Source: Chloropicon primus (lineage: Eukaryota > Chlorophyta > Chloropicophyceae > Chloropicales > Chloropicaceae). Taken from it: a stretch of DNA of 64,000 nt. Of this stretch, positions 16,727 through 56,446 are shown in pieces. The stretch covers positions 62,001-126,000 of the forward strand of contig CP060762.1 in the NCBI GenBank assembly GCA_023205875.1. The letters run 5' to 3'. Position 1 is the first letter of the stretch, and every line of letters starts with the position of its first letter. A program made the position numbers and the translations under genes. The notes under the pieces are model-generated. The model did no database searches, had not been told where the DNA came from, and was given only the letters and a program-made list of their open reading frames with translations.

Positions 16727-19700
16727 TTAGTTTCCGCCGGCACCCGTACTTCCAGAAGCATCGCCGTCGCTGACAGCGGAGCTGGCGGTTGGCCCGAAAG
16801 CGGCTTCTCCGTCGACTCTGAAAAAGCCATCGGCGGAGGCGTCCGCTCCCCGGAACCCTGCGTACACACCAACGTTGGCCGCGGACTCTCCGTAGAGGTC
16901 AAGGCCAGCGACGGCGTTGCCGCCGGGAACACCGCCGTAGCCATCCGCCGTCCCCGATGCCGTGCCTTGGGCGGAAAAGCCTGCATCACCGACGGCAATT
17001 CCAAAGGCGCCGTCATCGGAATTCGATAAAGCATCCGCGGCCCCGAAGTCCGCTCCCCCGATCTCCTGCTGGGCGTCTCCCATGGCAAAGCTGACGCCTC
17101 TGGCAACGGCGGCCGCGTAGTCCAAGTAAGAGGACCAGTCATCCACGTAGAAGTCCAAGGCCTGGGCCCCGGCATTCGAGAGGGTGACGCCCATGCCAAT
17201 GGCTTGGGCCTTGGCGTAGTCGTCCCTGGCGTCGTCCATGCCAAAAGCCGAGGAAATCTCGGCGGCGTAGTCCTGGGCAAGGGCGGTGTCGTAGCTTCCG
17301 TAGAGACCCCCGTCCGGAGTGAGTCCGATGTACTTGCCGTAGTCTCCCTTCTCAAAGTACACGGATCTCGTGTTGGTGTCATACGAGTAACTCGAGCTCG
17401 AGATCAGATCCGCAACGAGGTCTGCGTCAACGTCGTTTCCGCCCATGTTCTTCGAGGCAATTGGTGAGACCATGCCTTCGCCCTCCACACTCGTCTCGAG
17501 CCCAATGGTAGCCGACGCGCCAATTCTGTCTCCGACGATCACCGCCTCGGCAGACGCCGTGTCATCCCTGTAGACTCCGGCCGCCGTGGCCTTCTCGTCG
17601 TAGACTCCGATCTCGTAAGTGAGCTCTCCCGCGCTCGAAACGGAGCCACCGGCAACAGCCAGATCGGCGCTGACATCGCCCACAACCTCAGCACCAGACA
17701 GGTAGTCAATCTCGCCTTCAAGGGGTTCGCCTTGGATGGAGGCCTTGGATCCGGCTAGTGCCTTCCCGTCCACGATCCAGGTGGTGGACGGTGTTGTAAA
17801 CTGACCACTCTCTCCCGCAAGGGTGACAGTCGCCGAGCTGCCATCGTTAACGTCGGCGACAGCGACGCCGCCCGTATTGCCGCTGGCACCGGCGCCACCA
17901 GCAAACTGACTCGTGCTGGTCATGGCATCCAAGGCTGCCCGGCCCGAGGACGTATCTCCATCGCCCATCAGAACGAAAACCGTGGATTCGGCGATGATGT
18001 CTCCCTCCACGAGGCCGTCAGGGCTCACCTCCAGAAGGTTCATTTGGAGGCCCCCCGCCATAGTCTCCGCAGCCGTGATGCTAACGCCCGAAGAGAATTG
18101 TCCTTGTCCAGCCGCCTCAATGTCCTGAGAGGCCGTCCCCCTGGTCGTGGCTTGGCTCCCACCGACGATAGTGAAGCCGTCGGAGTCGACCAGCATGCTG
18201 CCCCCGGAGAAGTAATCCCCGTACGCGCTGTTGGCAGAAATCGAGCCCATGGATTCGGTCTCGTCCGCCTCGCTGAAGGCCATGAGGCTTCCCTCGGTGT
18301 CCCCGGAGCCCGAAGCTCCTGTTTCGTCGACGCCTGGGGGGATATCGACCTGTGTCGTGGATTCGAGCTCGAGGCCGGTCTTGGTGAACGAGGAGACCTC
18401 GCCGCTTCCCTCCGAGGAGACCTCCCCTTCGATCTTGGACTCTGCGACTCGCTGGCTGACTCGCGCGATGCTGGGGATTTGGCCCATGCAACCCTCGCTC
18501 CCGCATGCACCCCCGCTCAGCGTGGTGGATTGTCCATCTCCGCTGACCGTGCTGCCGGTCATCGAGAAGTCGGATCCGTCCGCCATGACGACGTCGGAGA
18601 CCTTGATGGCGTTCTTGTCGGTGCTGACCGTCCCGTCCAACGCGCTCACGGCGGCCACCTCGTTGCTGGCTTCGAGGTCGATCGCGGCCCCGGAATCCGT
18701 CCCGGATCCACGGGCGAAGGAGTCCAAGGCGAACTTGTTCGTCTGCACGGTTCCACCGAACAAGCCGTTCGCGATGCCGACTCCGACGCCGCCTCCGACG
18801 CCCCTCACCACGGACACCGCGTCCTCCGCTGTGGTGTCGACGCTCGACTTGGCCATGATCATGCCGAGCCCGGAGACCGCGAAGGTCCTCCCGGTGGCGT
18901 CCGCGTCGGCGTCGGCAGCCAGCCCGAGGTCGCTCCTCAGGGTCGCGCTGATGCCAGCGCCCACGCCAGCGGCGTCGGAGGTGAGACCGGTGTCGTAGTT
19001 GGCCCTGCCCGTGTAAGCACCGAAGCCAGTGGACTTGGCCGCGACGTTGGCGTCGGCCGAGTAACCGGCGTCCTGCTCGGTCAAAAAGTTACTCTCGGTG
19101 CCCCCCATGAAGCTGAAGACGGCATCGGCCTCGGCGTTCTCGGTGGTGGAGGCCTCGAGGGTCGCCACGCCGGCCACCGCGGCCTCGCCCTCAACGGACT
19201 CGGAGGTCGCTTCGAGCTCAAACCCCGCGAAGACTCTCCCCTCGCTCTCTTGGCCGAGCGCCTGGTCGTCCGTGTAGCTGTCCGCCCCGATGTAGACGTC
19301 GGCGTCCGCATTCGCAAAGTCCCCACGGGACTCGGACGCGTAATCGGCCATCACGTCGGCGACGTCCTCGGCGATGTCCAAGGCGAGGCTGGCGAAGGAC
19401 CTGGAGGCTCCCCCGGTGGCGCCGATGCTGAAGGAGCCGACGTCGATGGAGCCTCCGCCGCCCGAGGACGCCGCGGCGTTCCTGGACGACGAGGACTCTC
19501 GCCCCCCGTTGCTGACGTACACGGTCGAGCCCGCATTGCCCTCGCCGGTGTAGCTGGCGTCCGCCTCCCCGGAGAAGGCATTGCCCATGAAGGAGGTGAC
19601 CGCGGAGGCCGAGGCCGAGGGGCCGATCGCTCCCGAGGACGCGATCGCGACGCCGTCGTCGTTCGAGACCTCCGAGTACGCGTCCGTGGCGAACGAGCTT

Positions 19701-19966
19701 CCGAGGTCCTCCAGGTTGTCCGAGACGTCCAGGTCGGAGCTCGCTTCCGCCGTGGCGGACTCCTCATCCGCCGAGGAGGAAGACGTGGTCGAGGCCGAGA
19801 ACGACGCGGGGCCCATTCCCGAGAAGGAACCCCCTCCCGAGGACGAGGCATCGGCTTGGTTCAGGAGCGAACGCAAGCGCAAGGTTTGCTGCTCGGCGGC
19901 GGCGAAGGAGACCAACACCGCAAGAACGAGCACCGCCGCAAAGGCGACCTTCTTCATCCTCGTCAT
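16727..19966 (-). CDS. large secreted Ala/Ser/Gly/Asp-rich protein
   Basis: This is a 1,079-residue protein of unknown function. A clear signal peptide follows the start (MKKVAFAAVLVLAVLVSFAAAEQ), with cleavage likely after AAA. The mature part is acidic and built from Ala, Ser, Gly, Asp, Val and Thr; Lys, Arg, Pro and aromatic residues are scarce and only one Cys pair is visible (GGACGSEGCMG). Many short alternations (SADADADATG, FSGEADASYTGEGNAGS) look like beta-strand/turn repeats, so an extracellular or cell-wall fibre or beta-solenoid is plausible; this is inference. Four in-frame ATGs come from a TGTCAT array; I chose 19966 (MTRMKK), and 19957 is equally good. The unrelated-looking frame upstream is a trinucleotide Thr run. 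Confidence 0.8.
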   Translation of the reverse strand: MTRMKKVAFAAVLVLAVLVSFAAAEQQTLRLRSLLNQADASSSGGGSFSGMGPASFSASTTSSSSADEESATAEASSDLDVSDNLEDLGSSFATDAYSEVSNDDGVAIASSGAIGPSASASAVTSFMGNAFSGEADASYTGEGNAGSTVYVSNGGRESSSSRNAAASSGGGGSIDVGSFSIGATGGASRSFASLALDIAEDVADVMADYASESRGDFANADADVYIGADSYTDDQALGQESEGRVFAGFELEATSESVEGEAAVAGVATLEASTTENAEADAVFSFMGGTESNFLTEQDAGYSADANVAAKSTGFGAYTGRANYDTGLTSDAAGVGAGISATLRSDLGLAADADADATGRTFAVSGLGMIMAKSSVDTTAEDAVSVVRGVGGGVGVGIANGLFGGTVQTNKFALDSFARGSGTDSGAAIDLEASNEVAAVSALDGTVSTDKNAIKVSDVVMADGSDFSMTGSTVSGDGQSTTLSGGACGSEGCMGQIPSIARVSQRVAESKIEGEVSSEGSGEVSSFTKTGLELESTTQVDIPPGVDETGASGSGDTEGSLMAFSEADETESMGSISANSAYGDYFSGGSMLVDSDGFTIVGGSQATTRGTASQDIEAAGQGQFSSGVSITAAETMAGGLQMNLLEVSPDGLVEGDIIAESTVFVLMGDGDTSSGRAALDAMTSTSQFAGGAGASGNTGGVAVADVNDGSSATVTLAGESGQFTTPSTTWIVDGKALAGSKASIQGEPLEGEIDYLSGAEVVGDVSADLAVAGGSVSSAGELTYEIGVYDEKATAAGVYRDDTASAEAVIVGDRIGASATIGLETSVEGEGMVSPIASKNMGGNDVDADLVADLISSSSYSYDTNTRSVYFEKGDYGKYIGLTPDGGLYGSYDTALAQDYAAEISSAFGMDDARDDYAKAQAIGMGVTLSNAGAQALDFYVDDWSSYLDYAAAVARGVSFAMGDAQQEIGGADFGAADALSNSDDGAFGIAVGDAGFSAQGTASGTADGYGGVPGGNAVAGLDLYGESAANVGVYAGFRGADASADGFFRVDGEAAFGPTASSAVSDGDASGSTGAGGN

Positions 19967-20547
19967 TGTCATTGTCATTGTCATTGTAGTCGTCGTCGTC
20001 GTCGTCGTCGTCCAAGGTCGACGAGGTGTTCTTACAACTGATCGATCTTTCCACCCTCCCGCGCGTTCGAGGCCGCTGTCCTCGTGTTTCACTGTGGTCT
20101 GGCATCGAAAGATCAATTCTTCGAGGGAAACCCGATCGTTCTGCGGAAGCCGTTACGAAGAGACCACGAGATGCACCCGGGCTCGAACGTCTTGGGAAAG
20201 AAAAATCCGAGGAGGTTGAGAGGTGAGGGAGGGAAAGAGTGTTCATTTCAGCGTGTGAGAATTGGCCCTCGCCATGAGGAGGAGGGAGAAGACTTTGGCC
20301 AATCAAGGAGGGGAGGGCTGTTCTTGTACAATTTCTCATTCCAGGGGAAATACGTTTAGGACAAAATATCTCCTCTCTCTCTCTCACGAGCCATTCCCAT
20401 TCTATGGCTTCATTCTATTGTTCCTTGGTTCATTGGTCCCATGGGCAGGCACTTGACCACACATCCCTCTTCTTGCCTTGTTCTTCTTGCCTCGTTCTTC
20501 TCCTCCACAACAGAACTTGGAACTCTCTCGCTCAACCCCTTCTCACC
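19967..20547. other. intergenic between secreted protein and ATP sulfurylase 3' end
   Basis: This stretch carries the TGTCAT and GTC arrays at the secreted protein's start (about 19964-20010) and a GATCGATC site at about 20039-20046. A CT array lies near 20369-20380. No gene was seen. Confidence 0.6.
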
Positions 20548-30329: not shown

Positions 30330-31565
30330 ATGCCGGTTGACCAGGACGAGAACGAGGGGTTGGGAGTCGAGACGGTTCCCGTAGAAGTCGTGGTGGCACG
30401 CGATGACTGCAACGACTGTGGGTCGAAAGAATCCGGTGCTGGTAGCGACGACCTCGAGGACGGGGGCTCGGCCCCCGCTGGTGCGAAGGTTTGGAAGAGG
30501 CGTGACAGTGAGGGCCTCAAGAGTGACATGGAGAAGTACGCTCCCGCTCCAAAGACGCTTGGGGGCAGGCTCTTCTGCCTCGCGGGCGAGGAGAACTCTT
30601 TCCGTGCCAAGCTCGTCCGCTGCGACAGGGAGTACTATCCTGGCGAGGACTGGACCAGGGCTGACACACAGTACACGGCCGTGGCCGTGTTCGTGTTCGT
30701 CGTCTGGGCTTGCATCAACGTCTGGCAGGACAGGAACTCCTTCATGTACAACACCAGCATCAACTACCCCTTCTGGCTCAAGATGTTCTTCACGGTCTTC
30801 TTCAACATCATCATATCGGGCTTCGTGGGCTACTTTGTGGTGACTAGGGAGTGGCGCATCGGTTACGGCAGAAAGATCTTGCACTTTTGTCTCTTTGCGA
30901 GTCCAGTGCTTGTGAACTCGATCTTCGGTGAAATCGACACCAAGGTGATGGGTCTGAGCTGGCTCGCTTTGGTCTGCCAGGCGTACTTCTTCATCTTGCT
31001 CAAGCCCATCAGAAGGAGGTTGCCCATCCCCTTCTTGCTCGCGTTCAGAGCCATGGACAGACCAAAGGACAGGCCATACACGGTCCCGTGGCTCTGGGTT
31101 CAGAGCTTCTTCGGTTTCTTGGCCATGCTGCTGCTCCAGATCTACCTGAGCTCGAAGAACCTCTCGGACGCCTTCTTTTTGATCCCTCTCGTGGTCAATG
31201 GACTGGGAGACGGCTTGGCGGAGCCCGTCGGCATCCGATTCGGCAAGCACAAGTATCAGACGAGAGCCTTGTTCTACAAGGGCAAGTTCTGCTCCGGGGA
31301 ATTCATCAGATCCCTCGAGGGCAGCGCCTGCGTGTTCTTCTCGGCAGTCATGGCGGTTTTCATGATGTACAATGAATGGCAGAACACGACGAGGTTCGTG
31401 ATCGCCCTCGCCATCGTTCCCATCACCATGACCGCCGCGGAGGCCTTCTCTCCTCACACTTGCGACACGCCATTCATCTTCTTGGTGGCTACTGCACTGA
31501 TCTGCTTCCTCTTCGAAGCAGTGGATGACAACTTTGATCCATTCTCCCCAGACTACTCGCACTAG
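30330..31565 (+). CDS. CTP-dependent lipid kinase-like membrane protein (dolichol/phytol kinase superfamily)
   Basis: This 411-residue integral membrane protein starts at ATG 30330 (MPVDQDENEG). About 100 hydrophilic residues precede several hydrophobic segments (AVAVFVFVVWACINVW, FFTVFFNIIISGFVGYF, FILLKPIRRRLPIPFLL and others). YGRKILHFCLF matches the RK-lipid-kinase start motif. NGLGDGLAEPVGIRFGKHKY is the family's nucleotide/metal motif, followed by RSLEGSACVF and AEAFSPHTCDTPF. The superfamily includes dolichol kinase, phytol kinase, diacylglycerol kinase (CTP) Dgk1 and CDP-DAG synthase. The sequence does not tell which lipid is phosphorylated, though the arrangement suggests a kinase rather than a cytidylyltransferase. 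Confidence 0.8.
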   Translation: MPVDQDENEGLGVETVPVEVVVARDDCNDCGSKESGAGSDDLEDGGSAPAGAKVWKRRDSEGLKSDMEKYAPAPKTLGGRLFCLAGEENSFRAKLVRCDREYYPGEDWTRADTQYTAVAVFVFVVWACINVWQDRNSFMYNTSINYPFWLKMFFTVFFNIIISGFVGYFVVTREWRIGYGRKILHFCLFASPVLVNSIFGEIDTKVMGLSWLALVCQAYFFILLKPIRRRLPIPFLLAFRAMDRPKDRPYTVPWLWVQSFFGFLAMLLLQIYLSSKNLSDAFFLIPLVVNGLGDGLAEPVGIRFGKHKYQTRALFYKGKFCSGEFIRSLEGSACVFFSAVMAVFMMYNEWQNTTRFVIALAIVPITMTAAEAFSPHTCDTPFIFLVATALICFLFEAVDDNFDPFSPDYSH

Positions 31566-32043: not shown

Positions 32044-35000
32044 ATGGATCCGAGGTGGAGGAAAGGCGGCATCTTGGTGACCAAACTCACAACCTGGTTC
32101 GCTCTTGGCCTCCTCTTCGCGACACTGCCCTGCGGCAGAGGCGCAATTGGTGCCAGTGCCAAATGGACCAGCAAGTACACAAGTCTGGACACCGAGGTGA
32201 AGAGCTTGCTGCTGGAAGAGTCCATGTCACAACTTCGGCAGCTGGTGCCCACGAGGAAGAGCAATGGCCTTGTGTTCGGCACGCACTGCGCCTTGGAGGC
32301 GGAGACCACTGCCGTCCCTGCCGAGGAAGGGAACGGGACGGCTGCACCAGCACCAGTGGAAGTGGAGGAGACGGAGACCGGCGTGGTGCTGTTTCGAGTG
32401 ACTCGGGAGGACGTGAAGGGAATGGACGTCTCCAGGGCGACCCTGGCGCTTCACATACGAAGGTATGACTTGGAGCTCGACCAGGTTGACTTTTACTACT
32501 TGGACCAGACGTGGAAGTCAGCGGTGAGCCCAGGGACTGTGCTGGAGAACCTGAGAGCGAAGCAGAGCAAAGCCTTCGCCTCGATTGACTTGTCTCTTCA
32601 AGACAGAGGGTCCTGGGGGGCGCACAACGTCGACGTGACCCAGTACGTCCAAAAGGCATCGCAGGGTCTGAAAAGCTTGGGGGGGTTCCTGGCAGTTGGC
32701 TCCTCCAAGTCAGGCAGTTGCCGTGCCAGGGGCTTCATGCCCTCCTCGAGCTACAGTCCCACCGAGGGCCTTCCGCGGGTGCAGGTCGATTACAGAATCG
32801 ACATGTTCCCGCCGGTTGGGTCGATCACGGAGCAGCCTCCTCCGCTGACACGGCTGTCTACGGCAACGCTGCACTTTGCGGGAACGGACCTTGAGAGTGG
32901 CATGTCTCACTTCAAGTGCAAGCTGGACGACGGGGAGTTCCAGGACTGCACGAGCCCTTGGACGTACGAGAATCTGAAGGATGGGGCCCACAGCTTCGCC
33001 ATGAAGCCCGTTGACAACAGCGGGAACGAGGGGCACGTCGTGTTCAGCGAGCCTTGGCTGATCGACACCGTGCTCCCCGTCGCCCACCTGGTGGAGGGTC
33101 ACCACCCGCCTCAGAATTCCTTGAGCCAGTCCGCGACCTTCCTGTTCCACACGGAGGATAACGTCGTGAAGGGGGGGAGTGCCCAGATGACGACCGAGTG
33201 CAGGCTGGACGGCATGGAGTACTTTTTGTGCTACAGCGGGGCGCCGGTGACGTTCTCCGACCTCGACCAAGGCGTTCACAACTTTTACATCAAAGTCCAG
33301 GATGCGGCTGGAAATGTGAACGAGCTCGAGCTGTGGACGTGGCAAGTCGACATCCCCCCCGCTTGCTCGGTGCAAGTGAACAAGAGCACGGACAGGAGGG
33401 GGCACTCCGCTTTCGCGTTCACCTTTGCGTGGAGCGAGGAGGTGAAGGGATTCTCTCCGGACGGCGTGGTTGTCGGCGGCGTGGGCGCCGAGCTCAAGGC
33501 GTGGAGGCAGATCAACGAGACGCATTACCAGGCCAGTTGCGAGCCGCTCACCGACGGCGACATTACGGTCCAAGTCAAGAGCAATGCGGCCCAAGACATG
33601 GAAGGAAATTGGAACATCGAGCCGTCTAACACCGCGAGGATCTCGTACGACGGGACGCCTCCAAAGTGCACTCTGAAGACCCTGCATCCGGCAAACACCT
33701 TCTCTGGCAAGTTTTCCTTGACGATCGCTTGGAGCGAGGACGTTAAGGGCTTCTCGCCAGACGCCATCTCCATTTTGGGGGACTCTAAGAAGGTCGGAGC
33801 CACGTTTGCGTCCAAGTTCTCTGCAGATACCGTGGGAAGCCATTTCACGGGAACCATCGTTCCTTTCGGCATGGGCACCCTGAGCGTTAGCGTCAAGTCA
33901 AAGTCCGCACGGGATTTGTCCGGGAACACGAACGAGGACTCGTGTTCGTTGGATGTCACCATATCGAACACGGACGTGTATTACGCCTCCCAAGGCGGGT
34001 CCTACCTTTCCTCGATCGGCCAGGAGGCCCTCAAGACGTTTCAAGTTGTGCCCAAAAACGCCGTGAGCAAGTACAAGGTGCCTGGCAGGGCAGGGGCCTT
34101 GGAGGTGGACGGCCAGAACCACCTCTTCGTTGCGGTGAATAACCAGAGCATCTACATGTACGAAGCGAGCAAGATGGAAGCGATGCACACGGTCGCCCAG
34201 ACGGGAAAAATTGTTGGCCTGAAGACTGATGCGCATGGAAGGCTCTTTGCGGCCGAGGGGGAGAGCGGCGTCATCAGGGTTTTCGACATCTCGGAATCGC
34301 GTTTCGAGCTTGTGAACGAGTTCCCGATCAGCGCATCCTGGAACTACGAGGACGAGGACGTTGACTTCATTTCCATGGATTTCGACTTCACGGGTCAGCT
34401 CCTCGTGCTGAATCCTTTCGAGCCCAAGCTGCACATCTTCAACGCGGAAGACTTTTCTGCCGTGAAGACCGTGGACTTGAAAGCGGGCACGCGGGAGCCC
34501 TTGGCGCTCTCTGTTGACGGCAAGAACATGGTGAATGTTCTGGACAAGGCGTCCCGGTCCGTTCACAAGTACGGCAAGGGCTTCACAAAGGTTAGCGAGA
34601 CTTTGGTGCTGGAGGGCTGCGACGGTTTGGAGCCCAAAAGGATGTCCATCGACTCGTACCAAAATCTTCACGTGGTTGACGCGTCCAAGAGCAACATCTG
34701 TGTCGTGGACACCAAGCTCCAGGAAGCTTGGTTGGTTTCCATCGAGGGGAGCGGGGAAATCTTCGCGTCCTCGTCGTTTCACCAATCGCAGCCACCGACC
34801 TGCACGATCCTGACCCCTCCAGACAACCAGCACGCGGACTTTAACGTGACCTTCAAGTGGGATCGACCTGTGGAGGGCTTTGAGGTCGAGGACATCAACC
34901 TCGGCGGCTCTGGCGGCACCATCAGAGATCTCAGGCCGCTTGGTGGCGAGGGGGTCGCATCCGAGTTCACGGCAAGCGTCACTGCGGGTGGCATCGGGAT

Positions 35001-36588
35001 CGTGTCCTTCCAGATCAAGCCCTTTGCGGTGCAAGACGAGAATGGCATCTGGAACCCAACTCCGAGCGAGGTCTCGAAGACTTCCTTCTTTGGTGGCCAG
35101 TGCAGCGTGGAGCTCGGGTGCCAGTGGCAGCTGGCGCAGTACCAGAGTCAGCTTGCACTGGACAGGGTCCAAAAGGAGGTTGAGATGGAGCTCGAGAAGG
35201 AGGAGAAGGCGGCGCAGATCCGGGAGGAGGCCAGGATTCGAGCGGAAACCGCGATTGAGACCGCAAAAATGGAGATCGAGAAGGGTAAGATCATACTGGA
35301 GAAGGAGGTCATCAGGGCCCGCATTCAAGCCGAGGCGGACGAGCGGATCCGGGAGGCGAGGATGACGGAAGACATCCGGCTTCGAGAGATCAGGGAAAAG
35401 GGAGCAGAATACACGAAGACTGCGCTGGAAGTGGTTAACACCGTCCTCAACTCCATGCATTCGGTTCTGGAGAATCCTGAGCAGATGAAGCGCATCATCT
35501 GGACCCTCTTCGCCTTCTTCATGGCTTACTTCATCTCCAAGGAGGCAATCCAAGTCGTCGCGAAGTACATCTCCAAGTTGCTGGGAAAGCCATCCTTGCT
35601 GAGGGACACCACGAGGGGATCCATCGCTTCGCTGTTTTCTTTCCTTGTGAGGGCCCAAAAGGCGGAGACCGTGAGCCGGCAGGCCATGTTCAGAGGCATA
35701 GTCCTGTGCAAGGATCTCCTGAACCAGATGGAGATCGTTGCCAACTCCATCATCTGCAGGAAGCAGAACGACCTCCCGTACAGGCACATCCTTTTCCATG
35801 GAATGCCCGGCACGGGTAAGACGATGGTGGCCGAGAGGCTCGCCAAGCAGTGCGGGGTGGATTACGCGATCATGAGCGGGGGAGACGTGATCCCACTGGG
35901 AAAGTCCGCGGTGACCGAATTGCACAGGCTCTTCAATTGGGCCGAGAGAAGCAGCAAGGGGGTGCTCATTTTTATCGACGAGGCGGAAGCGTTCCTCCAG
36001 AAGAGAACCAGTGGGGTCCAGCAGAGCGAGCACATGAAGTCAGCGATAAACGCGTTGCTTTCGAGGACGGGGCAGCCCACGAGGAAGTTCATGCTCGTTC
36101 TTGCTACGAATCGGCCCCAAGACTTGGATTCTGCTGTCCTGGACAGGATCGATGATTCGATTGCTTTCCCCCTCCCCGGGGACAAGGAGCGGATGGAGCT
36201 GCTCGATCTGTACTTCACGAATTACATCGGCGCCATCTCCAAGGACAAGGAGGACAGCAGCGGGGGCCAAATTCTTGGGTGGACCATGGCGACGGTGCAG
36301 AGAAACAGGGGATTCCTCATGAACCAATTGTGCGCTTTGTTCCCATCGGTGTCTCCGCCCAAAATCATCAAGCTCGTTGGATTCCCGAACGGGGAGACCT
36401 TCAAGACCTTGTCGAAGATGACGAGCGGCTTCAGCGGTCGGGAGGTGTCCAAGCTCATCTCCTCTGTGGGGACCTACGCCATCAGCATGGACGGGAAGGG
36501 GGGCTCTTCCTTGTCTTGGAAGGAGTGCGTCGCCGTCGTAGAGCAGAAGGCAAAGGAGCACGCTGTGAAGAGATCCTTTTACGCGTGA
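32044..36588 (+). CDS. ATAD3-type AAA ATPase fused to Ig-like and beta-propeller region
   Basis: This 1,514-residue protein joins two unlike halves. Residues 1-36 look like a signal peptide or anchor (TTWFALGLLFATLPCG). Then come a region with a DNRLRE-like jelly-roll look (about 110-260), two Ig-like modules of the CKLDDGEFQDCTSPWTYE type (about 265-430), two bacterial-type Ig modules with FSLTIAWSEDVKGFSPDA (about 435-640), an NHL-like propeller (about 650-915) and a third Ig module (about 918-1010). A long charged coiled coil (about 1030-1150), a membrane segment (about 1151-1170) and an AAA domain follow. The AAA part matches ATAD3: LLGKPSLLRDTTRG, Walker A GMPGTGKT with K1259, VDYAIMSGGDVIPLGKSAV, Walker B FIDEAEAF (1310-1317), LATNRP and DRIDDSIAFPLPG. 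ATG 32044 is used; 31669 would add a leader. Confidence 0.85.
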   Translation: MDPRWRKGGILVTKLTTWFALGLLFATLPCGRGAIGASAKWTSKYTSLDTEVKSLLLEESMSQLRQLVPTRKSNGLVFGTHCALEAETTAVPAEEGNGTAAPAPVEVEETETGVVLFRVTREDVKGMDVSRATLALHIRRYDLELDQVDFYYLDQTWKSAVSPGTVLENLRAKQSKAFASIDLSLQDRGSWGAHNVDVTQYVQKASQGLKSLGGFLAVGSSKSGSCRARGFMPSSSYSPTEGLPRVQVDYRIDMFPPVGSITEQPPPLTRLSTATLHFAGTDLESGMSHFKCKLDDGEFQDCTSPWTYENLKDGAHSFAMKPVDNSGNEGHVVFSEPWLIDTVLPVAHLVEGHHPPQNSLSQSATFLFHTEDNVVKGGSAQMTTECRLDGMEYFLCYSGAPVTFSDLDQGVHNFYIKVQDAAGNVNELELWTWQVDIPPACSVQVNKSTDRRGHSAFAFTFAWSEEVKGFSPDGVVVGGVGAELKAWRQINETHYQASCEPLTDGDITVQVKSNAAQDMEGNWNIEPSNTARISYDGTPPKCTLKTLHPANTFSGKFSLTIAWSEDVKGFSPDAISILGDSKKVGATFASKFSADTVGSHFTGTIVPFGMGTLSVSVKSKSARDLSGNTNEDSCSLDVTISNTDVYYASQGGSYLSSIGQEALKTFQVVPKNAVSKYKVPGRAGALEVDGQNHLFVAVNNQSIYMYEASKMEAMHTVAQTGKIVGLKTDAHGRLFAAEGESGVIRVFDISESRFELVNEFPISASWNYEDEDVDFISMDFDFTGQLLVLNPFEPKLHIFNAEDFSAVKTVDLKAGTREPLALSVDGKNMVNVLDKASRSVHKYGKGFTKVSETLVLEGCDGLEPKRMSIDSYQNLHVVDASKSNICVVDTKLQEAWLVSIEGSGEIFASSSFHQSQPPTCTILTPPDNQHADFNVTFKWDRPVEGFEVEDINLGGSGGTIRDLRPLGGEGVASEFTASVTAGGIGIVSFQIKPFAVQDENGIWNPTPSEVSKTSFFGGQCSVELGCQWQLAQYQSQLALDRVQKEVEMELEKEEKAAQIREEARIRAETAIETAKMEIEKGKIILEKEVIRARIQAEADERIREARMTEDIRLREIREKGAEYTKTALEVVNTVLNSMHSVLENPEQMKRIIWTLFAFFMAYFISKEAIQVVAKYISKLLGKPSLLRDTTRGSIASLFSFLVRAQKAETVSRQAMFRGIVLCKDLLNQMEIVANSIICRKQNDLPYRHILFHGMPGTGKTMVAERLAKQCGVDYAIMSGGDVIPLGKSAVTELHRLFNWAERSSKGVLIFIDEAEAFLQKRTSGVQQSEHMKSAINALLSRTGQPTRKFMLVLATNRPQDLDSAVLDRIDDSIAFPLPGDKERMELLDLYFTNYIGAISKDKEDSSGGQILGWTMATVQRNRGFLMNQLCALFPSVSPPKIIKLVGFPNGETFKTLSKMTSGFSGREVSKLISSVGTYAISMDGKGGSSLSWKECVAVVEQKAKEHAVKRSFYA

Positions 36589-54445: not shown

Positions 54446-56446
54446 TTACGTTCGCACCGAAACGGTTGGGAGGGCCTCAACGTGCAGCTCCAAGCTCTTC
54501 AGGACTTGGCAGTCTGGCTGCAACATGGGTTGGTACTGCAGTTGTGAACTCACATTTGCTTGGAGTTGCGAAAGCGCGGAAAGATCCTCCGTGTTGACGA
54601 GCCCTTCCGGCTTCAGAAGAACTGCCCTGAAGGACTTTCCTTCCGCGCACTCGAACACGTTTGCCTTCCAAGCGAGCTGGCTTTGCCTCGAATCTAGCAT
54701 GGCCTTTGGAGCAGCATGCTTCACTTGCCACCCACTGAAATGGTGCAGCAAGGGGATTTGGATCGCGCAACTCGCAGTGTTGATCGACGTGCTCATCCTT
54801 GGCGACTTGAGCAGCTGCACGTGGAGCTCGACCCACCTCGGGGCAACCCTGATCTCGAAGAACGTCCTCGCCGGAAGCGGGAACCGATTCGGCTTCACGC
54901 TGTACCTGATCACGTCTTGCAGGGCCCCGTAACTAGGGGCGGCGCCACAGTCCAACACCAAATCTTGTGAAAGAGTCCCTCCCGCCAAGATGTGCAAGGC
55001 ACCGAGGTCTCTCAACCAGACTGGGTTCAGCTTGATCAGCGCATTCGAGACCGTGGTCCCCCGGTCACACCGAATGCCCACGCTTCCGGTGCACCGTGCC
55101 TGAAGGCACCCGGCCTTCACTTTCATGGTAATCCGCTCATTGATTATCGCCGTGGTCTTTACCCCTCCGCTCCAACGATTGGTGTCGTCGCTCCGAAACA
55201 TTGTATTGATCATGGTCATCGGGGAGTCGACCCTGATTTCGTTCGATCCACCGGCCAGGAGGCCGCGTCCAGTGCGCATCGCAGGCGGAATGACCGCCGG
55301 AACGGGTTGGAAGCCCGCTTGATGATCTTGTTCGGCCACCACTTGTTCTTCCGCAGAGAAAGGAGGTGCGGGCTCCTGGCTGAAGGAATCGGGTGAGGGG
55401 CCCTCCGCCACGTCGCTTGCGCCAAAGTTCGCTTCCAGCGCCCCAGAATCTTGCGTGGGAGGCAAGCCAAACAGGTCAAATGGATCTGCTGGTTCTGCTG
55501 CTGGTGTGATCGTCGTTTCTGGGAAACTCCCGGGCTCCGTCTGCGCAGGAGCAGCACCAATCGGAGCTGCACCGAAGTCAAGTGGATCCCTTGCATCTTC
55601 TCCTCGCACGTCCTGGTCCTGGGAGATCAGGGGCTCTGGAATGGCGCCATTGCTCGGGCCTGGTGGTTCTGCTTGCCCCCCTTCTCGCGAGCTCAACGAT
55701 TGTGGAGCAACCGTTGCCACAAGATTTGGATTCGTCCCCTCCTGCAGAACCTCTTTCGTTTCTCTCTCTTGTTCTGCGATGGGGGAAACAGCGCCGTTGG
55801 CGTCTTCCCGCGAGTCAGTGGGAGTGCAAGTTGGCTGAGGACCACCGAACATGCCACCGCCAGGTTGCGGATCTTCCACCGGCGTCGCCATGGTTGCAGA
55901 CGCCTCAGGCAGCGTCTCCGACCCTTCGTCGGGGCTCCAAGTCAGTGAGTGCGGTCGGATTTCCTGAGAAAGATCGAAGTTTTGCTTCTGGCTACCCTCG
56001 ATTGTGGTCAAGCAATCGAGACTCAGCACTTTGCGCGTGCAGTGCAGCATGTGCGGAACCAAGACAGCTTCAACGAGGGCGACAACTTTTTCAGAGTCCT
56101 TGACAATGTCCTCCATCGTGAGCCCGGCGCTCTTGGCGCTGCATCTGACTTGCAGGAGCTCCGACATAAGATTCTCCAGGGCGAACGTGTTCGTTTCCGA
56201 TGTGAACAGGTAGAGGTAACCGTCCGCAAGTTTCCCTCGAGTCGCCATCATCCTAGCGTTAAGACTTGGGATAGAGGCGTGCTCCACCTTGTTTTGGACG
56301 CTCCCGTTCGGTCTCTTCCCACTCCACTTCGATGCGGCAGAGTGCATCATCCTGAGAACATCCCCCTCGTCCGTGCCATAGCAATTGAGAGCCTTCCCCC
56401 ACGTCGTCCCGTTGTTGGTGACCACCACTGCCACTGGAGTCTCCAT
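54446..56446 (-). CDS. mu-homology-domain adaptor, TML/muniscin-like
   Basis: This 666-residue protein has a longin-like N-terminus (about 1-150; GYLYLFTSETNTFALENLM), a disordered middle with clathrin/adaptor-type DPF motifs (ADPFDLFG, DPLDFG), and a C-terminal beta-rich mu-homology-like domain (about 390-665; ITMKVKAGCLQARC, VIRYSVKPNRFPLPARTF, IQIPLLHHFSGWQV). Domain order and length (plant TML is about 650 residues) suggest TML of the TSET/TPLATE complex or another muniscin, acting in endocytosis. Identity is low by eye, so an AP-complex mu-like protein is the alternative. A triplicated 181-bp unit begins 4 bp before its start codon. Confidence 0.55.
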   Translation of the reverse strand: METPVAVVVTNNGTTWGKALNCYGTDEGDVLRMMHSAASKWSGKRPNGSVQNKVEHASIPSLNARMMATRGKLADGYLYLFTSETNTFALENLMSELLQVRCSAKSAGLTMEDIVKDSEKVVALVEAVLVPHMLHCTRKVLSLDCLTTIEGSQKQNFDLSQEIRPHSLTWSPDEGSETLPEASATMATPVEDPQPGGGMFGGPQPTCTPTDSREDANGAVSPIAEQERETKEVLQEGTNPNLVATVAPQSLSSREGGQAEPPGPSNGAIPEPLISQDQDVRGEDARDPLDFGAAPIGAAPAQTEPGSFPETTITPAAEPADPFDLFGLPPTQDSGALEANFGASDVAEGPSPDSFSQEPAPPFSAEEQVVAEQDHQAGFQPVPAVIPPAMRTGRGLLAGGSNEIRVDSPMTMINTMFRSDDTNRWSGGVKTTAIINERITMKVKAGCLQARCTGSVGIRCDRGTTVSNALIKLNPVWLRDLGALHILAGGTLSQDLVLDCGAAPSYGALQDVIRYSVKPNRFPLPARTFFEIRVAPRWVELHVQLLKSPRMSTSINTASCAIQIPLLHHFSGWQVKHAAPKAMLDSRQSQLAWKANVFECAEGKSFRAVLLKPEGLVNTEDLSALSQLQANVSSQLQYQPMLQPDCQVLKSLELHVEALPTVSVRT

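Follow-up and report, generated by a model that had tools for sequence, protein, structure and literature searches.

A second, strongly diverged ATAD3 of the green alga Chloropicon primus appears to carry a secretory-type ectodomain

Results

The locus and its reading frame

Chloropicon primus RCC138 is a picoplanktonic green alga whose genome is given in Table 1 of PMC12301720 as 17,584,162 bases on 20 chromosomes, with a mean of 0.54 introns per gene. In the stretch of 64,000 nucleotides of this alga analysed here, C9:62001-126000 (from here: the window), the forward strand carries a gene at positions 32044-36588 that encodes 1,514 residues followed by a stop codon; its translation upheld the claim of an earlier note, made from the letters of the DNA, that a single open frame of 1,514 codons lies here. 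The encoded protein begins with a signal-like start and a region of weak resemblance to DNRLRE/CBM96. Two Ig-like and two Big_12 modules follow, and after them a probable beta-propeller and a weakly matched third Big_12 module. Then come a charged helix and one membrane segment, together matched by the ATAD3_N profile, and finally an AAA domain. The upstream neighbour is a frame of 417 codons with no Pfam match at 1e-5, and the downstream neighbour, on the opposite strand, encodes a triose-phosphate-type transporter. Elsewhere in the window, open frames of 1,129 and 666 codons at 16727-20116 and 54446-56446, both on the minus strand, likewise have no Pfam match at 1e-5.

The ATG at 32044 has a fair start context (AAGATGG) and opens the signal-like stretch, and the same open frame extends further upstream to an ATG at 31525. 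At the base composition of the gene, the chance of 1,514 stop-free codons is about 1.4e-25. The GC content at third codon positions (GC3) is even along 32044-36588, ranging from 0.73 to 0.89 over the 15 full blocks of one hundred codons and being 0.67 over the final 14 codons; where the ectodomain joins the ATAD3 part, the two blocks have values of 0.77 and 0.80. Between 34701 and 35600 the frame of the gene has no stop, compared with 7 and 4 in the other two forward frames. A pattern search for GTRAGT or GTGCGT splice donors in the coding sequence returned a sole instance at 36525, 63 bases 5′ of its end. Only 46 codons separate the end of the third Big_12 match (residue 981) from the start of the ATAD3_N match (residue 1028), leaving little space for a terminator, untranslated regions and a promoter. 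An internal methionine is present at residue 1048, within the ATAD3 part.

Modules of the N-terminal arm

All features of this gene described from here on lie on the plus strand of the window. The signal-like sequence comprises residues 1-39 (32044..32160), as delimited by hydropathy and by an Ala-X-Ala-like end recognised by eye. Among the first 14 residues four are basic and one is acidic; a hydrophobic stretch follows at about residues 15-29 and small residues come after it, an order that resembles a secretory signal. With a value of 1.72 over 19 residues, starting at residue 10, this is the highest hydropathy peak of the protein, and on these grounds the signal-like N-terminus proposed earlier stands, as judged by hydropathy and eye. 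A basic N-terminus with a hydrophobic stretch may also serve as an organellar sorting signal.

Residues 124-224 (32413..32715) resemble two profiles over the same stretch, Pfam CBM96 (E 0.0033, searched with the piece) and NCBIfam DNRLRE (E 0.0073), both under their cut-offs. A genome-wide search with the CBM96 profile returned 0 matches at E up to 1, residues 124-224 included, and the AlphaFold single-sequence model of the DNRLRE-like piece was uninformative (pLDDT 33.7). The idea of a sugar-binding arm, which was suggested by these two sub-threshold profiles, failed in the genome-wide CBM96 search.

The first Ig-like module, of the OmpL47 type, spans residues 272-329 (32857..33030), contains the pair Cys292/Cys302 and reached 44.9 bits on the piece and 37.8 on the whole protein at an NCBIfam cut-off of 40. 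For the second, residues 405-436 (33256..33351), the end of Pfam Big_13 matched under its cut-off (26.5 bits on the piece, cut-off 27), and the pair Cys386/Cys396 lies directly N-terminal of it; in a genome-wide Big_13 search the single match was again under the cut-off and fell in another protein, the protease L036 described below, the window gene being absent at E 0.001. Pfam Big_12 matched the whole protein at E 1.1e-16 and 61.4 bits (cut-off 27) in three stretches, two of which pass singly, residues 438-533 (33355..33642) and residues 536-635 (33649..33948). The third, residues 916-981 (34789..34986), is under the cut-off, with E 0.0024 and 18.5 bits on the piece. Hence, the Ig-like modules of the earlier reading were recovered, two of Big_12 type and one of OmpL47 type over the cut-off and the others more weakly. 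As judged from these profile matches, the Big_12 and OmpL47-type modules mark the arm as being of the exported- or extracellular-protein type.

Residues 674-901 (34063..34746) probably form a beta-propeller, with five blades recognised by eye and a possible sixth, also by eye, at residues 640-673. Several WD40-type profiles matched this piece weakly, among them THOC3 with an E-value of 7.3e-08 yet 32 bits against a cut-off of 305. The AlphaFold single-sequence model of the piece is of low confidence (pLDDT 47.4, pTM 0.48); with this model Foldseek returned 1,812 matches, and among the 50 listed the TM-score normalised to the query was 0.25-0.41. We take most of these 50 titles to be WD40, NHL or BamB propellers; the titles of three rows, given as Cu/Zn-superoxide dismutase, do not identify them as propellers. 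A search of the piece against the PDB gave 8 matches, the best at E 0.066. The blades resemble one another weakly (mean z 1.3 over 10 pairs, of which 3 are negative), and the sequence is thus no proof of a propeller. The propeller-like region that had been proposed accordingly keeps its weak WD40-type profiles and its Foldseek propeller matches, set against weak similarity between blades and a pLDDT of 47.4. Structure prediction, which had been put forward as a check, gave poor models for pieces of the arm; the propeller matches came from the 47.4-pLDDT model, and nothing was gained from the DNRLRE-like piece.

Residues 32-644 had 0 matches in the PDB at E up to 10, and the ectodomain was without a match in viral contigs. 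The missing ectodomain homologues say little, since the collections scanned were viruses and prokaryotes, the latter with the ATAD3 half only.

Two further proteins of this alga have modules of related types. On contig C2 (L036:2397-7979, minus strand), a subtilisin with a PA domain and several Cys-paired Ig-like modules is encoded; by eye, its start is signal-like and a membrane segment lies at the C-terminal end, and judging from these features it is likely a surface protease of C. primus. It resembles the window protein in the Cys-pair pattern of its Ig-like modules, in its signal-like start and in the membrane segment near the C-terminus, whereas it has a protease in place of the propeller and no ATPase. 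On contig C5 (L037:1591-2940), a surface-type protein consists of a proline-rich stretch followed by a Big_12 module; among the genome-search matches listed, this is the only Big_12 locus beyond the window gene.

The ATAD3 half and its paralogue

Pfam ATAD3_N matched residues 1028-1187 (35125..35604) at E 1.1e-21 and 77.8 bits (cut-off 25). This match is incomplete, covering positions 101-265 of the 265 of the profile (the back 62%), with the first ~100 positions missing, and we therefore class the protein as an ATAD3-derived paralogue and not as a canonical ATAD3. One clear hydropathy peak (1.54) precedes the AAA domain and predicts a membrane segment at residues 1151-1169 (35494..35550). The 20 residues before it contain two Lys or Arg and two Asp or Glu, and residues 1171-1200 after it five Lys or Arg and one Asp or Glu, so that the net charge is higher after the segment than before it, the stretches compared being unequal (30 and 20 residues). 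Pfam AAA matched residues 1249-1377 (35788..36174) at E 1.9e-25 and 90.2 bits (cut-off 21.2). The motifs GMPGTGKT (1253-1260), FIDEAEAF (1310-1317) and LATNRP (1353-1358) were located, and Walker A, the Asp-Glu of Walker B, the Asn of LATN and the Arg of V-L-x-R-I, which we take to be the arginine finger, are all retained. Retention of the Walker motifs, the sensor-1 Asn and the arginine finger is expected of a working ATPase. In alignment A1, the C-terminal part of the AAA region has an insert of about 35 residues relative to the paralogue (36274..36393), seen as gaps of 26 and 8 columns.

The intact AAA domain of the earlier note and, as a prediction from hydropathy, its one membrane segment are borne out by these peaks, matches and motifs. 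The stretch that it called a long coiled coil is charged, proline-free and homologous to ATAD3_N, but heptad and hendecad tests gave no signal above shuffles for it, nor for the canonical paralogue.

Searching the genome in six frames yielded two ATAD3_N loci at E up to 1, the window gene and a canonical ATAD3 on contig C6 (from here: C6 ATAD3). The latter has 570 residues, covers positions 10-265 of the ATAD3_N profile, likewise retains both Walker motifs, the LATN Asn and the V-L-x-R-I Arg, and also has one clear hydropathy peak before its AAA domain, from residue 243; it has no N-terminal hydrophobic peak. Over residues 1028-1397 of the window protein, the two are 41% identical. Since the only other ATAD3_N locus found is canonical, we regard that one as the housekeeping copy and the window gene as a paralogue.

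A maximum-likelihood tree of 26 AAA regions, rooted at the midpoint and built from rows of C. primus and Dependentiae with no animal or plant ATAD3 among them, paired the window protein with C6 ATAD3 at 98/95. Both fall in an ATAD3-like group of 14 rows (12 Dependentiae, the window protein and C6 ATAD3) at 100/99, outside of which are 11 other AAA proteins of C. primus and one Dependentiae AAA protein, an FtsH by eye. The end branch of the window protein has a length of 0.87. Of 42 distinct rows, 16 had been dropped: L010, L031, L032 and L212 as cut rows, the first three of them being copies of the window gene, L004 and L018 as overlapping stretches from the L001 gene, and the further AAA rows L006, L007, L008, L016, L019, L020, L026, L027, L201 and L202 to keep the tree small. 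An FtsH- or CDC48-type identity was considered and rejected; the best PDB and NCBIfam matches are VCP/Cdc48, PAN and FtsH, but the tree places the AAA region with ATAD3. The Pfam matches, the 41% identity to C6 ATAD3 and the tree together support the ATAD3-type identity that had been proposed. From these comparisons, the window gene appears to be a strongly diverged second ATAD3 of C. primus, its front replaced by a secretory-type ectodomain.

Relatives in viruses and Dependentiae

In viral contigs, 158 relatives were obtained with alignment A1; identity among the best 80 is 26-38%, mostly in the AAA region. With the single protein as a query, two pattern matches to the ATAD3 half were obtained in viruses; neither was confirmed, and both were discarded. 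Against prokaryotic genome contigs, the same alignment gave 317 relatives, and from the best 80 of these 317 we followed L118 (WJIY01000035.1, 5368-6954). Like the window protein, L118 has a signal-like start, a helix, a membrane segment and an ATAD3-type AAA domain; Pfam ATAD3_N does not match it at E 0.01.

ATAD3-like AAA proteins are encoded by Dependentiae bacteria (L118, with loci L199 and L203-L214). Of 86 Dependentiae genomes, 39 have a match to the ATAD3 alignment at E up to 1e-20 and 33 at E up to 1e-34. Six of the 39 have weak matches confined to the AAA region, at 72-82 bits, scores that ordinary AAA proteins also reach, and 19 have two or more matched places. We inspected 13 Dependentiae rows, chosen as best-scoring or as coming from the genome of L118; one is cut. 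Of the 12 complete rows, nine have, close to the first methionine, a hydrophobic peak over 15 residues, and eight have a peak at the expected position of the membrane segment. Given the N-terminal peak in these nine rows, a layout of signal, helix, membrane segment and AAA domain already exists there. The Dependentiae proteins differ from the window protein in their length of about 500-600 amino acids, in having no arm of surface modules and in lying outside the pair formed with C6 ATAD3. In the tree the Dependentiae rows are split (2 changes; united in 2% of bootstrap trees), and L199 sits on a long branch.

Discussion

ATAD3 homologues are present in plants and algae (PMC13249166), and ATAD3 is described as essential in mouse embryos (PMC3556029) and in Plasmodium (PMC13249166). 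Two membrane segments are reported for human ATAD3A (PMC10419812, PMC13249166). Reviews locate the ATPase of the mammalian protein in the matrix of the mitochondrion; the coiled coils lie outside the inner membrane, either within the intermembrane space (PMC10419812) or extending to the cytoplasm (PMC13249166). PMC12933880 deals with contacts between endoplasmic reticulum and mitochondria. The window protein shares with the ATAD3/ATAD3A family the ATAD3_N helix, a membrane segment and an ATAD3-type AAA domain with intact motifs. It differs in lacking the first ~100 ATAD3_N positions, in place of which stand a signal-like start and Ig-like, propeller-like and DNRLRE-like modules over about 1,000 residues; its C-terminal AAA part also has an insert of its own. 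The word ATAD3 is absent from the main texts of the two Chloropicon genome papers, and our literature search found no paper on an ATAD3 paralog in a green alga, none on an AAA ATPase with an extracellular domain, transmembrane segment, beta-propeller and Ig-like modules, and none naming both ATAD3 and Dependentiae; by title, nothing was found on algal (Chlamydomonas) ATAD3 or on the domain architecture of ATAD3. To our knowledge, the action of the ATAD3 ring and the contacts of its N-terminal arm are unsettled.

The explanation we favour, with a probability of about 0.62 as a whole, is an ATAD3-derived membrane ATPase of type I that resides in the secretory route and is anchored or gated by its arm. 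The signal-like N-terminus would send the protein into the secretory route, where the arm of modules would face the lumen or the exterior of the cell, with the ATP-hydrolysing AAA ring on the cytosolic side of the membrane. With a signal peptide placing arm and ATPase in this way, the sidedness of ATAD3 would be kept. This reading draws support from the exported-type modules, from the protease L036 of the same alga with its similar Cys pairs and signal-like start, from the higher net charge after the membrane segment and from the layout seen in Dependentiae. The five N-X-S/T sites all lie N-terminal of the membrane segment, which is expected by length alone about one time in four and is therefore weak support. 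The subunits may assemble into a hexamer, as proposed for ATAD3, and the arm may bind a partner in the wall or the lumen, either a glycan or a protein, such binding anchoring or gating the cytosolic motor. That the arm senses something in the lumen or outside, as the earlier note had suggested, we infer from the signal-like start and the module types, which fit. A bolder version, in which the ATAD3 machine has left the mitochondrion for a surface or secretory membrane and an outer arm that binds wall or ligand directly controls the cytosolic AAA+ ring through a single membrane helix, making a receptor-type AAA+ ATPase, is put forward tentatively.

The same sidedness would also result in an organelle, if the N-terminus were a bipartite sorting signal for the mitochondrion (or the plastid) and the arm lay in the intermembrane space and the AAA domain in the matrix. 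This would match canonical ATAD3A, whose ATPase is in the matrix and whose N-terminal part is on the other side of the inner membrane (PMC10419812). The four basic residues and one acidic residue among the first 14 fit such a signal. We consider this placement unlikely in view of the strong hydrophobic stretch near the N-terminus, of surface-type modules whose Cys pairs resemble those of the secreted-type protease L036, and of the canonical paralogue on C6, which is without an N-terminal hydrophobic peak.

Improbable to a greater degree is a protein that enters the secretory route and is inert there, either a tether or adhesion protein with the AAA domain as an oligomerisation anchor or a decaying paralogue. 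Its long divergence from the paralogue (41% identity, end branch 0.87) and the private AAA insert would suit this, but the retained Walker A, Walker B Asp-Glu, Asn of LATN and Arg of V-L-x-R-I argue against it. It is very improbable that an ectodomain gene and an ATAD3-like gene share the frame by accident or by assembly; the methionine at residue 1048 could start such a second gene, but the frame is open throughout, including the 0 stops against 7 and 4 around the junction, the gap is 46 codons, GC3 is even and no strong donor lies near the junction. On these grounds of frame, spacing, GC3 and splice sites, both the two-gene reading and an intron were rejected from the DNA itself.

The ATAD3-like proteins of Dependentiae pose the question of ATAD3 transfer between these bacteria and eukaryotes. 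For the family, a natural ATAD3 relative with a different, recognisable arm separates the ATPase half from the arm half. The prediction that follows is of an ATPase core that works as a portable trans-membrane machine, with the choice of partner left to the N-terminal part. If the protein is located at the surface, the alga would possess an unusual design, in which an arm that binds outside is joined directly to a cytosolic AAA+ motor.
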